From positions 1-64,000 of the forward strand of contig JAMPAG010000002.1 in assembly GCA_023667365.1 (NCBI GenBank): DNA of 64,000 bases, given 5' to 3'. The notes under the pieces were generated by a model, which saw only the letters and a program-made list of their open reading frames with translations, did no database searches and was not told where the DNA came from. The stretch comes from a bacterium. Its GTDB lineage: Bacteria > Bacillota > Clostridia > Lachnospirales > Lachnospiraceae. Within the stretch, counting starts at the first letter, position 1. Each line of letters begins with the position of its first letter. A program made the translations under genes and the position numbers. Shown here one piece after another: positions 31,511 through 37,912 of the stretch.

Positions 31511-33481
31511 ATGCCGAAAGACAAGAAAAAGGAAGACCAAAATAAAAAAAATCCTTATCATCACGAATACAGCATGTTTTCCAATGTACTTTATATCATG
31601 AAAAAAATCCGCCGTTATTGTCCGATCTTAGGCATTCTGATGATCGTCGGCATGTTCAGTCAGTCCATCGCGCAATATCTGGCGAGCTTTATCGGTAAAT
31701 TTGTCATTGATATTGTGCAAGTGCAGGCAGGGAGCGCGCAAAAGGATTTTGCGCCGCTGATCCGCGTTTTGTTGATCGCATGTGCAGTTGAACTTGTGAT
31801 TATGCTTCTCAATGCGGTCACGGGAAACAGATGCTGGTATTATATGATTCATACGCGCATGAAGGTCATCACGGAACGCGTGCAGAAGGCGCTTTCCATG
31901 AATTATCAGATGTTCGAGGAACCGGATGCGCTGGATATGGAAGAAAAAGCATTGGAGGCGACCGGAGGGAACACGAACGGCATAGAAGGAATGATGCATA
32001 ACATTTATGATTTTGGCATCAATGCGGTTCTATTACTTATTTCGCTCACCACGGTCGTTGTGCTCGATTGGCGTATGCTGATCGTGTTAGGAATTATCAG
32101 CGCAGTCCAGCATCTTTTTTTCCTTCACACGGTAAAAAAGGACAGGCGGGAGGTCTGGGATAAATTAGCGCCGATATGGCGGAAGACCCATTACATGGAG
32201 CAGTCGATGCAGAATTTCGATTATGCGAAGGATATTCGTCTGTTTTCCATGAAAAACTGGCTTTCTAAAAAGCAGCATGAGATTTTGATGGAAAAGCAGG
32301 ATAAGATGCTCTACAGCCGGACGCTTTGGATTTACAATACGGCGTTTGCGCACGGTTTGTCCGTCATTACCACAGCGGTCATTTATGCGGTCATGATCTT
32401 TGCGGTCGTGGACCGGGATTTATCCATCGGTAATTTTACGCTGTATCTGGGTCTGGCAATGAATTTTACCATGGCGATGGGAAAGACGTTCAATACGCTT
32501 GGAGACATCAAAGAAAATTCTCATGAGGTCAGTTATTTCCGCTCGTTTATCGACATGCCGACCGCGGACCGTCCGGGGGAGTCGTATACTTCTCCCAGTG
32601 CCTCGTCTGATTTAACAGAGAAAAGGACAGACGCTGATTTGTCTGTTTCGACGAAAGAGAAAGCAGATGCAGATCAATTTCTCCCGATCCCTCAAACGGA
32701 CGGTTATACCTTTACATTCCGAAATGTGTGCTTCCGTTACGCAGGTGCGAAAGAAGACGCGCTTCACAACTTAAACCTTACTTTTTCCGCGGGAGAGCGG
32801 CTTGCGATCGTCGGCTTAAACGGCGCGGGAAAAACAACATTCGTGAAGCTGCTTTGCAGACTGTATGATCCGACAAGGGGAGAAATTCTTCTAAACGGCG
32901 TTGACATCCGGATGTTTGAGAGAAACGAGTATTTCCGCCTATTTGCGCCCGTGTTTCAAAATGTGGAGCTGTTTGCATTTCCGATGGCGGAAAACGTATC
33001 CATGATGCCGCCCGGAAAGACAGATCGGGAAAAGAGCAGAGAATGTCTGATACAGGCGGGACTTTCCGATAAGCTTGCCGAATTAAAAAACGGCGTTGAT
33101 ACAGAGCTGTTAAAAATCATTCATGACGACGGCATTGACTTGTCCGGCGGTGAGAAACAAAAACTCGCGCTTGCCCGCGCGCTGTATAAGAATGCGCCGG
33201 TCATGGTACTTGACGAGCCGACCGCCGCGCTGGATGCATTGGCGGAATATCGTCTATATTGCAATTTTGATAAGATCATCGGAAAGAAATCTGCGGTCTA
33301 CATATCGCACCGTCTTTCTTCCACGCGGTTCTGCCATCATATCGCGATGTTTCAGAACGGGGAAATGGTGGAATACGGGACGCATGAAGAATTGCTCGAA
33401 AAAGGCGGCGCTTATGCTGAAATGTTTCAAATTCAGTCGCAATATTATCAGGAAGAGGGAGAGGAGGCAGTATTCGAATGA
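31511..33481 (+). CDS. ABC exporter half-transporter, subunit 1
   Basis: About 656 residues: a six-helix transmembrane domain, then an ATPase domain. Walker A is GLNGAGKTTFVKLL, the signature DLSGGEKQKLALARAL and Walker B PVMVLDEPTAALDALAEY, all intact. A ~40-residue polar Ser/Asp/Lys-rich linker (SPSASSDLTEKRTDADLSV) lies between the domains and is not usual. The start at 31511 is preceded by GAGGTGAG; the frame is open for 12 more codons upstream. It overlaps the next half-transporter by four bases (ATGA), so the two should form a heterodimer. Substrate unknown; the neighbours suggest a peptide or drug. Confidence 0.9.
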   Translation: MPKDKKKEDQNKKNPYHHEYSMFSNVLYIMKKIRRYCPILGILMIVGMFSQSIAQYLASFIGKFVIDIVQVQAGSAQKDFAPLIRVLLIACAVELVIMLLNAVTGNRCWYYMIHTRMKVITERVQKALSMNYQMFEEPDALDMEEKALEATGGNTNGIEGMMHNIYDFGINAVLLLISLTTVVVLDWRMLIVLGIISAVQHLFFLHTVKKDRREVWDKLAPIWRKTHYMEQSMQNFDYAKDIRLFSMKNWLSKKQHEILMEKQDKMLYSRTLWIYNTAFAHGLSVITTAVIYAVMIFAVVDRDLSIGNFTLYLGLAMNFTMAMGKTFNTLGDIKENSHEVSYFRSFIDMPTADRPGESYTSPSASSDLTEKRTDADLSVSTKEKADADQFLPIPQTDGYTFTFRNVCFRYAGAKEDALHNLNLTFSAGERLAIVGLNGAGKTTFVKLLCRLYDPTRGEILLNGVDIRMFERNEYFRLFAPVFQNVELFAFPMAENVSMMPPGKTDREKSRECLIQAGLSDKLAELKNGVDTELLKIIHDDGIDLSGGEKQKLALARALYKNAPVMVLDEPTAALDALAEYRLYCNFDKIIGKKSAVYISHRLSSTRFCHHIAMFQNGEMVEYGTHEELLEKGGAYAEMFQIQSQYYQEEGEEAVFE

Positions 33482-35247
33482 ATCGAAAGACGATACGTTA
33501 CTTTTTCCCGATCGCATGGAAATTTCAAAAAAAATACTTTTTTATCGGCATAGCGAAAGCCGTGCTGGAAGCGGTGCATCCGTTTGTGAGTATTCTTGTT
33601 GCGCCCCTCATTATTGACGAGCTTTTGGGCGCGCGCGATCTGACGAAAATGTTTATCTACGTCGCGGTCATTGCCGTTGTCGGCACGCTGATTTCTTTGA
33701 CGGCCTCCGTACTTGGCTGTCAGATGGAAAAATGCGACGAAAAATTCAAAAATTACTTCACGGAACAGATGAGCCGCCGCGTCATGGAACTGGATTTCCA
33801 GCTTACGGAGGATAAGGAAGCGCTGGATCAGATCGAGCTCGCCCGGACGGGAATGGATTGGTATTCGGGCGGTGTGCATGGAATTTTTGAGCAGGTGCTC
33901 AATATGTTTTCGGCATTTCTGCGTGTCGGCGGCGTTGTTGTGTTGATCGCGATCCATGCGCCGATCCTGTTTGTTTTGGTTTTTATTACGCTGGCGATCA
34001 GTATGCTTCTGAACCGCAGGGATAATGCGATCGAGCTTCGGTTTCATAAGGCGCTTTCCAAAGTAAACCGTGTGTTCGGTTACAGCGGTTACGAATTGAT
34101 GGAAATTCGCTATGCGAAGGATGTCAGATTGTATCACGCACAGGAAATGTTAGTGACGAAATGGGAAACCTACACGGAAGAATCGTTAGGTTATTGGAAA
34201 TCCGAGGGGGACGGCCATCTTCCGACTTCCTGTATCAGTGCGGTGACAACGACGGCGAGGGATTTTTGCATGTATCTGTACCTCGGCATTCTTGTGATCA
34301 GAGGAAGCATTACGATCGGAATTTTTTCCCAGATGATCTCCTCATGTAAAGAGCTTACGGATTCCGTTGTCAGTATCGGCAGATGTATGCAGGAGATCAC
34401 AAAGCGTTGCAATTATGCATATGAATATGTGAAATTCATGCATTATCCTGCCGCGATTGAAAAGGGCAGCCGCCCGGTCGGACCGGGGGAGCATATGATC
34501 GAGTTCCGGGATGTTTCTTTTGCCTATCCCAAAACGGAAGTTCAGGTACTGCAGCATGTGAACTTGAAATTAAAGGCGGGCGAACATCTTTCGGTTGTCG
34601 GCTTAAACGGTGCGGGAAAAACAACGTTTGTGAAGCTTCTGTGCAGATTATACGATCCGACGGAGGGGGAAATCCTTCTGGATAATATCAATATTAAAGA
34701 ATATGATTATGAGCAGTACATGAATCTGTTTTCCCCTGTATTTCAGGATTTTAAGCTGTTTGCATTCTCGATCCGGGAGAATATTCTGATGGGAGAAAAG
34801 GAAACAGACGGAACGGAAAACGCTCTGCGCGGTCTGTTTGAGCAGGTCGGATTTTCGGATAAGCTGGCGGCGTTGGAGCATGGGATGGATACGATGCTGT
34901 TTAAGTTCTTTGATAAAGAAGGAATCGAGGCGTCGGGCGGGGAACAGCAAAAGATTGCGATCGCGCGGGCGCTTTACAAGCACGCGCCGGTCGTGATCCT
35001 CGACGAGCCGACGGCGGCGCTCGACCCGGTTGCGGAATATGAGATTTACCGCCAGTTTCATTCCTTAGTCGGCGGAAAGACGGCAATTTATATCTCGCAC
35101 CGGCTTTCTTCCTGCCGTTTCTGCGATCATATTGCCGTTTTCAGCGACGGGCGCGTGGCGGAATACGGCACGCATGATACGCTGGTTCATAAGGAAAACG
35201 GCATTTATGCGGAAATGTTTGCCGCGCAGGCGCAGTATTACCAATAA
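33478..35247 (+). CDS. ABC exporter half-transporter, subunit 2
   Basis: A 589-residue partner of the preceding gene with the same layout: six membrane helices, then Walker A GLNGAGKTTFVKLL, signature EASGGEQQKIAIARAL, Walker B PVVILDEPTAALDPVAEY and switch His in YISHRLSS. The ATPase domains of the two subunits are very alike, which points to duplication. The ATG overlaps the upstream stop in ATGA, indicating coupled translation. It is the last gene before a 232-bp palindromic element. Confidence 0.92.
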   Translation: MNRKTIRYFFPIAWKFQKKYFFIGIAKAVLEAVHPFVSILVAPLIIDELLGARDLTKMFIYVAVIAVVGTLISLTASVLGCQMEKCDEKFKNYFTEQMSRRVMELDFQLTEDKEALDQIELARTGMDWYSGGVHGIFEQVLNMFSAFLRVGGVVVLIAIHAPILFVLVFITLAISMLLNRRDNAIELRFHKALSKVNRVFGYSGYELMEIRYAKDVRLYHAQEMLVTKWETYTEESLGYWKSEGDGHLPTSCISAVTTTARDFCMYLYLGILVIRGSITIGIFSQMISSCKELTDSVVSIGRCMQEITKRCNYAYEYVKFMHYPAAIEKGSRPVGPGEHMIEFRDVSFAYPKTEVQVLQHVNLKLKAGEHLSVVGLNGAGKTTFVKLLCRLYDPTEGEILLDNINIKEYDYEQYMNLFSPVFQDFKLFAFSIRENILMGEKETDGTENALRGLFEQVGFSDKLAALEHGMDTMLFKFFDKEGIEASGGEQQKIAIARALYKHAPVVILDEPTAALDPVAEYEIYRQFHSLVGGKTAIYISHRLSSCRFCDHIAVFSDGRVAEYGTHDTLVHKENGIYAEMFAAQAQYYQ

Positions 35248-35249
35248 AA

Positions 35250-35481
35250 ATTCGAGTGTCAAAAGCCCTGCAATGAAATCGGTGTTGCAGATTGCACAAA
35301 AGAAATCTGTGCGCACTTCATTGCACAAAGCATTCCAATGAGCCTCAAAGCAAACATCGTGTTCAGCAGAGGCTTCCACGATGTTAGAGTCTCATTTCCA
35401 TTGTGCAAAAGTCGTTTGCCCTGATTTCTTTTGTGCAATCTGCCAAGTAAAATTTACAGGCAGGGCTTTGGACACCCGAAT
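35250..35481. repeat. 232-bp long inverted repeat (palindromic element)
   Basis: Arms of about 112 and 105 bp (35250-35361 and 35377-35481) are imperfect reverse complements around a 15-base loop. Matching segments include ATTCGRGTGTC at the tips, AAAGCCCTGC, CAGATTGCACAAAAGAAATC, TTGCACAA, CAATGAG or AAATGAG, and CATCGTG at the loop. It fills the gap between the convergent ABC and TIGR03915-type genes. There is no open reading frame in it. It could be a miniature mobile element or a structured RNA/terminator; a half-copy lies at 7635. Confidence 0.8.
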
Positions 35482-35495
35482 TCTAACAGAATATG

Positions 35496-36266
35496 TCACG
35501 CGCTGTCGAATTCGAGCATGTAGTCCCGGTAGCGGATGGCGCAGAGGGTGCGCTGGCAGCGATAGTTTTCGCGTTCTTTGATGGCGATTGTGCGGAAGAA
35601 GGTTTTCCACATGTGCTCGTACTCTGCGCTTTCGCCGCTGTTCCAGATACGGTCCATCACTTCCTCGCTTAACGGTGCAAGAAACCATTGCCGTCTTCGT
35701 TCATGAAAAGCGCCCATATGATGTGTTTCGTCAAGGATCACGAAATGTTCTTCTGGAAAGCGGTCCGCAAAATGCGGCGCAAGAAGCGGAAGGGGCTGGT
35801 TTTTTGGTTGGATCTTGGCGATCAGGATTCCCTGTTCGGAATCATGAAAGCGGATAAAGCCCCGAAGTAAATGCGCCTCGTTTGCCACATTGCGCTGAAG
35901 ATCAAAAAGGCGGCAGACGGTTTCGTCCGCCTGCAGATCGACAACCGATCTTCCGCGTGGAAAGCCGAGTTTTAAGAAGCGGTAAATGACGTCTATTTTA
36001 TCCGGTTCCTTAGAGAGGGTGGCAAGATAGACCATATCGTAGGCTTCTCTGCTGATCTTTCCGGCGATGGAGCGCGCGACCTTGACGGCTTTCTCTAAAT
36101 CGGTCTGCACATACACATAGTCCGTAAACAGCTCAAAGCAGTAGCCTTCTTCCACGGATAATCTTAACTGTCCGTCCGGGATCCGTGCCGCCCACGCATC
36201 ATAGATCGCCGTAAAGATACCGTCAGGCGTATCCTCGCAAAGGTAGGTTGTGAATAAAGTGTTCAT
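35496..36266 (-). CDS. TIGR03915-type putative DNA metabolism protein
   Basis: A 256-residue protein of the family linked to TIGR03916 radical SAM proteins, recognised from EDTPDGIFTAIYDAW near the start, the middle segment HLLRGFIRFHD, PHFADRFPEEHFVILDETH, and the end YEHMWKTFFRTIAIKERENYRCQ. In some bacteria this domain is fused to a uracil-DNA-glycosylase-like domain, hence a proposed role in DNA repair. No enzymatic activity is established. The start codon overlaps the upstream stop (TGATG), so it is translationally coupled to the radical SAM gene and shares its LexA-like promoter. Confidence 0.87.
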   Translation of the reverse strand: MNTLFTTYLCEDTPDGIFTAIYDAWAARIPDGQLRLSVEEGYCFELFTDYVYVQTDLEKAVKVARSIAGKISREAYDMVYLATLSKEPDKIDVIYRFLKLGFPRGRSVVDLQADETVCRLFDLQRNVANEAHLLRGFIRFHDSEQGILIAKIQPKNQPLPLLAPHFADRFPEEHFVILDETHHMGAFHERRRQWFLAPLSEEVMDRIWNSGESAEYEHMWKTFFRTIAIKERENYRCQRTLCAIRYRDYMLEFDSA

Positions 36267-37912
36267 CAGATGATACTCCTTTGTTGATCGTCAAACAGGG
36301 AGAGTTGACGGTAGCTCATACCGTACGCGATCTCCCAGTTTTTCTTTTTGTCTAAGTCAATGAGGTTCCGGGTGATATAATCCTCGTCAATCTTAGTGGG
36401 ATACATCATCTTTCCGTTGCAGGTGATAAAGTAGTGCGCGCGCTTTAGGACGACGCCGATGCGTTTTAATCCGTCAAAATCAAGCTTCATGCCCCTGCGT
36501 GCGCGGACGATGCGTTTCGCCGATTTGACGCCGACGCCGGGAATACGGAGCAGTAATTGATAGGGCGCACGGTTGATCTCCACCGGAAAATATTCCAGAT
36601 GACGCAGCGCCCACTCACATTTCGGATCGAGAAAGACGTTGAAATTCGGGCGCTCCGGTGTTAAAAGTTCGTTTGCCTGAAATCCGTAAAAGCGCAGCAG
36701 CCAGTCCGCCTGATACAGACGGTGCTCGCGTAAGAGCGGCGGTTTCGTGCCGAGTGCGGGCAGGGAGCTGTCGTCGTTTAAGGCGACGTAGGCAGAGTAA
36801 AAAACGCGTTTTAAGTCAAAGCGCTGATATAACGCTTCCGCGACGGACAGAACCTGATAATCGTCCTCCGGCGTTGCGCCGACGATCATCTGCGTGCTCT
36901 GTCCCGCCGGGACAAAGAGCTGCCTTTTTGTCCGCTCCGGCGAATGCATTCTCCCGGACGAAGTATCCGGTAATGGACCGGGTAACGTGCCGGGCATATC
37001 GTTATATGTTGTATCCGACAGATAGCCGGATGGTGCGTGCGATAACGTATCTGACATAGAGCCGGACAGGGTATCCGAGGGAATATGCGGCAAAGAGGGA
37101 ACCGCAGAGTCCGTAGTCTGTATCAGCATGGCAGCAGGAGAAGGCGCAGGGGCGGCATTTTGCGTTAAGCCAGCGGGGGACAACGCAGGATCGGGAGCAG
37201 AAAATCCCCACGGCGCTGTGCCGGAACGGCGAATCTGTTCCGCAATGCCTGTACTCCCGCTTAATTGACTGATGCGAAGCGTCTCCCCTTGTTTTGCGTG
37301 CGCGATGCCAAGCTGGATCTGGCGCATGGGCTTTAAGATCGTTTCCCGTGTCTTGTTTGGCGCAAGCCGGCGCAATCCTTCGGCGGTCGGCAGTTCGAGA
37401 TTGGTGCTCATGCGGTCGGCAAGCAGACCGACTGCCGCCACAATTTCCGGAGCCGCTCCGGGTATTGCCTTTACATGAATGTAGCCGTTAAAGTGGTGCT
37501 TTTCTCGAAGAAGTCTGAGCGCAATATAAATCTGTTCCATGGTTTCGGTCGGATTATGACGGACGCCGGAGCTTAAAAATAATCCTTCGATATAATTGCG
37601 CCGATAAAACTGCATGGTCAGTTCGCTTACTTCTTCGGGCGTGAACGAGGTGCGCACCGTATCGTTGGAGCGCCGGTTCAGACAGTATTTGCAGTCATAG
37701 ACGCACTCGTTTGTATAGAGGATTTTGAGCAGAGAGATACAGCGTCCGTCCGCCGCGAAAGAATGGCAGATCCCGCATGCCGCCGTATTTCCCATGCCGC
37801 CGCTTGTTCCTTTGCGCTCCACACCGCTTGAGGTGCAGGCAACGTCATATTTTGCCGCATCGGAAAGAATTTCTAATTTACGTTCCAGCGGAAGCTGTTC
37901 CATTACTATCAA
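36266..37912 (-). CDS. TIGR03916-type radical SAM protein, putative DNA repair
   Basis: About 548 residues. The start LERKLEILSDAAKYDVACTSSG is typical. ACGICHSF is followed by the radical-SAM cluster motif C-x3-C-x2-C in NECVYDCKYC (about residues 70-77). A helix-hairpin-helix LLRIPGVGVKSAKRIV near residue 450 suggests DNA binding. The extreme C-terminus has QLSLF (36293-36307), the sliding-clamp-binding pentapeptide. An unusual ~120-residue Pro/Ser/Thr-rich insert (DNA about 36931-37291) separates the core from the C-terminal part; the family is normally near 420 residues. Start uncertain: TTG at 37912 is six bases after AGGAG, an ATG follows at 37903. Promoter with two LexA-like boxes at 38035-38090. 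Confidence 0.88.
   Translation of the reverse strand: MIVMEQLPLERKLEILSDAAKYDVACTSSGVERKGTSGGMGNTAACGICHSFAADGRCISLLKILYTNECVYDCKYCLNRRSNDTVRTSFTPEEVSELTMQFYRRNYIEGLFLSSGVRHNPTETMEQIYIALRLLREKHHFNGYIHVKAIPGAAPEIVAAVGLLADRMSTNLELPTAEGLRRLAPNKTRETILKPMRQIQLGIAHAKQGETLRISQLSGSTGIAEQIRRSGTAPWGFSAPDPALSPAGLTQNAAPAPSPAAMLIQTTDSAVPSLPHIPSDTLSGSMSDTLSHAPSGYLSDTTYNDMPGTLPGPLPDTSSGRMHSPERTKRQLFVPAGQSTQMIVGATPEDDYQVLSVAEALYQRFDLKRVFYSAYVALNDDSSLPALGTKPPLLREHRLYQADWLLRFYGFQANELLTPERPNFNVFLDPKCEWALRHLEYFPVEINRAPYQLLLRIPGVGVKSAKRIVRARRGMKLDFDGLKRIGVVLKRAHYFITCNGKMMYPTKIDEDYITRNLIDLDKKKNWEIAYGMSYRQLSLFDDQQRSII

Follow-up and report, generated by a model that had tools for sequence, protein, structure and literature searches.

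In bacterial MITEs the ends are recognised and the middle drifts. They are non-autonomous derivatives of DDE transposons (PMC10969869). The palindromic element analysed here is likewise short, non-coding and dispersed, with terminal inverted repeats, internal deletions and, at some copies of its own genome, 7-bp repeats, whereas its folded centre and not its ends is conserved, its arms vary between copies and genera, and no autonomous partner was identified. With REPINs/RAYT (PMC3116915) it shares intergenic mobile hairpins and many copies per genome; it differs in carrying a conserved apex and not a conserved foot. In IS1272 transposition stem-loops are replaced, with inverted repeats serving as targets (PMC5678879). 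Finally, template switching renders the arms of imperfect inverted repeats identical, which is termed quasipalindrome correction (PMC7202029, PMC3820800). The combination found in our element, a conserved tip with copy-specific, always self-matching arms, was described nowhere in the literature searched, and a literature search with the terminal loop sequence yielded no matching paper.

The palindrome between two convergent genes

The window, i.e. the whole stretch of 64,000 nucleotides that was analysed, is part of a 3.29-Mb draft genome (own genome, G000). The following features were assigned:

35249..35482, no strand: whole palindromic element, one copy of a dispersed family (inverted-repeat mapping, folding, genome copies)
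35249..35271, plus strand: left terminal inverted repeat, AATTCGAGTGTCAAAAGCCCTGC (family consensus GATTCGGGTGTCAAAAGCCCTGC)
35460..35482, minus strand: right terminal inverted repeat
35288..35442, minus strand: conserved folded core (match of covariance model R1, 186 bits; at least 16 genera)
35319..35409, minus strand: apical part of the core (compensatory helices, conserved GGA/GRA internal loop, A.G mismatch)
35361..35377, minus strand: conserved terminal loop GGAAGCCTCTGCTGAAC
33478..35247, plus strand: ABC transporter gene, context outside the element, ending 1 base before it
35496..36266, minus strand: TIGR03915/DUF4130 gene, context outside the element, converging on it with its end at 35496

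The palindrome is far beyond chance. Its RNA fold reached -99.9 kcal/mol on the plus strand (shuffles -57.9, z -8.7) and -111.2 kcal/mol on the minus strand (z -10.0), and 0 of 200 shuffles attained the native folding energy on either strand. An earlier sequence-only reading had described a 232-bp palindrome between convergent genes with a 15-base loop and differences between the arms. All of this was recovered, with one more base on each side (35249-35482). Its statement that the arms match over their full length had to be corrected: conserved internal loops and bulges interrupt the pairing of the arms, and the element is 69% identical to its own reverse complement across 234 bases. The centre as a conserved folded core had been missed.

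Window positions 34400-36600 were used as query for the orthologous site in three sister species (G001, G002, G003). In all three the flanks were intact with 83-88% identity and the palindrome was missing. A short terminator-like hairpin, AGCGCATAAA...TTTATGCGCT, occupies the site in G001 and G003, and only something resembling its right arm remains in the own genome. One arm of this hairpin was lost at the window site without a duplication, while other copies of the own genome carry duplications. After the species split the element was either gained at the window site or lost in G001, G002 and G003, a triple loss being less likely. The insertion would have displaced the older terminator-like hairpin, and the element may now terminate transcription as a side effect.

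Copies in the own genome and candidate movers

A total of 11 near-full copies with 85-96% identity were found in the own genome, in addition to numerous fragments and one copy with a partial deletion. The fragments were mostly shorter palindromes with outer arms kept and the centre missing; the tabulated palindromes comprised ten of about 63-96 bp, with TCGGG and CCCGA as the limits of the measurement, and 12 of greater length. Full and short copies carry GATTCGGGTGTCAAAAGCCCTGC at both ends, a terminal repeat not found in the copies of other genera. Direct repeats of 7 bp, of the type CTNNNAG or CTNNNTG, flank four copies (CTATAAG/CTATAAG, CTATAAG/CTGTAAG, CTGCATG/CTGTATG, CTTGTAG/CTTGGAG). 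Clear target duplications were seen at these four copies of the own genome only, and inspection of the flanks of the window copy gave no clear 7-bp direct repeat. As apex-less short copies occupy separate loci, the apex is either dispensable for movement here or was lost after insertion. The motif CTTATAGGAAATTTC occurred 30 times in the own genome with at most one mismatch (L286-L315; reversed control 0). It usually opens a repeated double-hairpin unit, GAAGAATYGC..GCRATTCTTC followed by AGAGTTTGCGG..CGCAAACTCTTTTTT, and it also serves as palindrome target.

The search for further copies suggested by the sequence-only reading was productive, with roughly a dozen full copies and some ten shorter ones in the genome and the core in at least 16 genera. 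A single-copy sequence lacking signs of mobility, named there as the contrary outcome, disagrees with these copies, the other genera, the 7-bp repeats and the empty sites. The proposed miniature inverted-repeat element describes the shell in the own genome well (common ends, deletions, 7-bp repeats, empty sites) but not the family-wide folded centre, and the target-site duplications to be looked for exist at four copies but not at the window copy.

With respect to the mover, a Y1 (PF01797) transposase is encoded in G000 and G211 and was missing in 6 of 8 multi-copy carriers (G127, G252, G102, G196, G218, G116). REPIN/RAYT and IS200/605 were therefore excluded as general mover, and the lack of the Y1 domain in these carriers also separates the element from REPINs/RAYT (PMC3116915). 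Two lone ends 5 kb apart on contig C34 (L040) and one lone end on C95 (L043) were considered as autonomous elements and rejected, as both places hold ordinary genes with no transposase among the ORFs.

An insertion sequence with ends ATGATGTTGGGG breaks the assembly of the own genome at the contig ends of C3, C12, C40, C46, C64, C71, C73, C79, C88 and C99. It adjoins a palindrome at five of the ten ends. An intact relative in G196 (L401 612-2234) encodes an IS1182-like transposase, which scored below the NCBIfam cut-off with DDE domains present. The end of this IS1182-like element, GATGTTGGGGTCAAAT, is only vaguely similar to that of the palindrome; the target CTTATAG is common to both. Comparison of the two gave no match of ends, and no transposase could be tied to the palindromic element. 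That the IS1182-like element moves the palindromes is a guess. A stem-loop replacement of the type of IS1272, which we take to belong to the IS1182 family, agrees with the loss of the terminator arm and with an insertion sequence adjoining palindromes. Both IS1272 (PMC5678879) and our element have inverted-repeat targets, in line with the partly replaced terminator-like hairpin at the window site and the IS1182-like element at palindromes (5/10 ends). Unlike IS1272 (PMC5678879), our element is non-coding, and four of its copies show 7-bp duplications, which stem-loop replacement does not give. In the own genome the core would be carried in a MITE-like shell with ends GATTCGGGTGTCAAAAGCC; a DDE transposase, for which the resident IS1182-like enzyme is a possible candidate, would be able to move this shell.

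The folded core across Lachnospiraceae

Some copies in G002, G003 and another genus (G016) matched in the centre only. Alignment of the centres yielded a rod with many compensated changes, and the covariance model R1 was built from this alignment. Within the family, sampled with one genome per genus, 13 of 299 genomes gave R1 matches; in an order-wide sample 9 of 392 genomes did, all from the same family and with three new genera among them. Over both samples at least 16 genera of a single family, Lachnospiraceae as assigned from record titles, carry the core. A fixed-pattern search of GTDB contigs gave at least 115 stretches; nearly all of the listed match titles belonged to Lachnospiraceae (Coprococcus comes, Roseburia and Blautia among them) or to unnamed gut bacteria. 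Two contigs titled Alistipes (L210, L214) held copies scoring like those of the own genome; they are probably mis-binned. Core rows per genome amounted to 55 in G127, 46 in G319 (C. comes), 30 in G252 (one contig), 15 in G102 and 7 in G211 (one contig), some of these rows being second-strand or partial matches. A single genome thus holds at most about 50 copies. The core was missing from viral contigs, phages and plasmids at the sensitivity used.

Neighbouring copies pair as minus then plus, 72-398 bp apart, at L112, L116, L151, L166, L173, L179, L221 and L239, with L112 and L221 representing one locus in two genomes; the reverse order was never found among the cases seen. Such a pair as the two ends of a larger element was rejected, since the 72-398 bp spacers contain no convincing gene.

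For the covariation analysis 26 sequences, mostly one per genome, were aligned by sequence alone. The 28-pair core structure was paired in 94.9% of cells, compared to 33-44% for slid control structures. Changes on both sides with pairing kept were observed for 24 of the 28 core pairs, and two-sided cells numbered 112 versus 29 in shuffles. Unpaired positions were kept in at least 22 of the 26 sequences, namely the GGA/GRA internal loop, the A.G mismatch and parts of the terminal loop, which follows the pattern GA-AGC-CNNT-GCT-GA. The core has covarying helices with conserved loops, as a structured RNA would. We regard the existence of the element family and of its conserved core as virtually certain.

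In other genera the centre is the conserved part, with completely different ends and arms. A family-wide folded core in unrelated outer arms cannot be sufficiently explained by a plain MITE. An ordinary MITE, with neutral filler as its centre and with family-wide similarity due only to descent from one ancestral element, would agree with the common ends, the internally deleted versions and the 7-bp duplications of the own genome, but not with a centre conserved elsewhere while ends and arms differ completely between genera, nor with unpaired loops that persist despite homogenisation of the arms. We regard this already disfavoured explanation as quite unlikely.

Self-matching arms and action as DNA or RNA

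The arms in G127 form a near-perfect palindrome of more than 100 bp. Over 60 bp their identity was 96.5% within a copy versus 74.6% between copies, and G252 and G102 showed a similar pattern. Among the copies fetched, a new arm sequence recurred at another locus rarely, if ever; arms as sequences common to several loci were rejected, as sharing is rare. Arm evolution was followed with 16 orthologous copies of G252 and G319, alignable with their flanks. The apex border was mis-set in a few copies (L125, L129, L158), so that the following per-region rates are approximate. In 12 of the 16 orthologues 0-4 arm substitutions each were counted, summing up to 20 of about 954 arm sites, while about 9% of their 100-bp flanks had changed, more than the arms. 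Many copies keep their place between related genomes, and arms better conserved than the flanks of the same loci look like useful sequence and not like a passive passenger, a point against the mobile-hairpin explanation. In the other four (L096/L334, L121/L340, L159/L372, L163/L363) 12-33 arm sites were altered, with the change symmetrical on both arms, self-complementarity kept and flanks still aligning. At L163/L363 apex and inner stem were almost unchanged, which rules out a swap of the whole element there. Between a further orthologous pair, L083:1501-1657 and L223:1647-1804, a single G:C to C:G change was found on both arms, the intermediate not being seen.

Judged from the sequences, the matching arms may be explained by template switching across the hairpin, which would erase arm mismatches. 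Quasipalindrome correction (PMC7202029, PMC3820800) fits self-matched arms without G-U excess; alone, it leaves the near-frozen arms of most orthologues and the four two-arm rewritings unexplained. The symmetrical rewriting could reflect replacement by copies not seen in the sample. A new kind of DNA hairpin, with the apex as recognition module and locus-specific self-complementary arms rewritten in one step by copying arm onto arm with unchanged flanks, is a possibility that we rate low.

Pairing at the RNA level would let G-U far exceed A-C among sense-strand mismatches. In the arms of 169 copies 100 G-U were counted versus 103 A-C (9 and 21 in G127 alone). As a control, tRNAs at the same loci, only 10 in number, gave 17 G-U and 0 A-C in 214 pairs. 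Within the apex 11 G-U and 5 A-C mismatches were found among 723 cells (p 0.21), which are too few to settle the strand; given this slight surplus, the tip may act as RNA. Apical G-U was rarer than in the tRNAs of the same loci (1.5% vs 7.9% of pairs, p 2e-5). No promoter enrichment was found on either side of the copies. T-runs followed the arm in 18 of 164 copies and, on the other strand, in 23 of 165, which is no excess. A GC-rich stem followed by a T-run, as asked of a terminator, was not detected beyond chance, including the hit of the window scan. By crude ORF calling the neighbour genes of 146 contexts were oriented head/tail in 58, tail/head in 36, convergent in 28 and divergent in 24 cases, with a median gap of about 50 bp to the gene ending on the 3' side of the hairpin. 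Neither the contexts and orientations nor the promoter and T-run counts speak for an RNA gene or a terminator.

Two further explanations have to be judged by these data. In a structured RNA family the core strand would be transcribed, acting as sRNA, RNase III substrate or 3' UTR element, with duplication as the source of the paralogues. In favour of such a family are compensated substitutions in almost all apical helices, conserved tandem purine mismatches as in RNA internal loops and orthologous copies better conserved than their flanks. It is nevertheless unlikely: a search of Rfam with permissive thresholds gave chance matches only and no credible family, G-U excess in the arms is missing and apical G-U low, promoters and T-runs are not enriched, and both orientations to the neighbour genes occur. 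A bidirectional terminator or insulator that was recruited to intergenic sites and kept by selection would suit the convergent genes at the window site, the partly replaced terminator-like hairpin of G001 and G003, the intergenic position of the copies and their short distance to the gene ending at the hairpin's 3' side, but the few convergent contexts, about as many as divergent ones, the absence of an adjacent T-run from most copies and a conserved apex that is unnecessary for termination make it quite improbable. Accordingly, of the long structured RNA stopping transcription from both sides that had been suggested for this locus, the RNA part was not supported by mismatches, orientation and signals; at the window site the element may still act as a stopper of convergent transcription.

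The element probably acts mainly as DNA. Our best explanation, held with slightly better than even confidence, is a mobile DNA hairpin that does not move autonomously, with recognition of its folded tip and homogenisation of its arms as DNA. A trans-acting protein would recognise the folded apex of one strand, and we lean, with some reserve, towards classical mobility of the element with its apex read by such a protein. In contrast to MITEs, evolution here keeps the middle. For other elements it follows as a caution that strong covariation can come from DNA and need not imply RNA. With up to about 50 near-perfect, seldom-repeated hairpins per genome, common gut bacteria offer a natural system for palindrome tolerance, correction and rewriting, and the hairpin family may point to a transposase or hairpin-binding protein not recognised so far.
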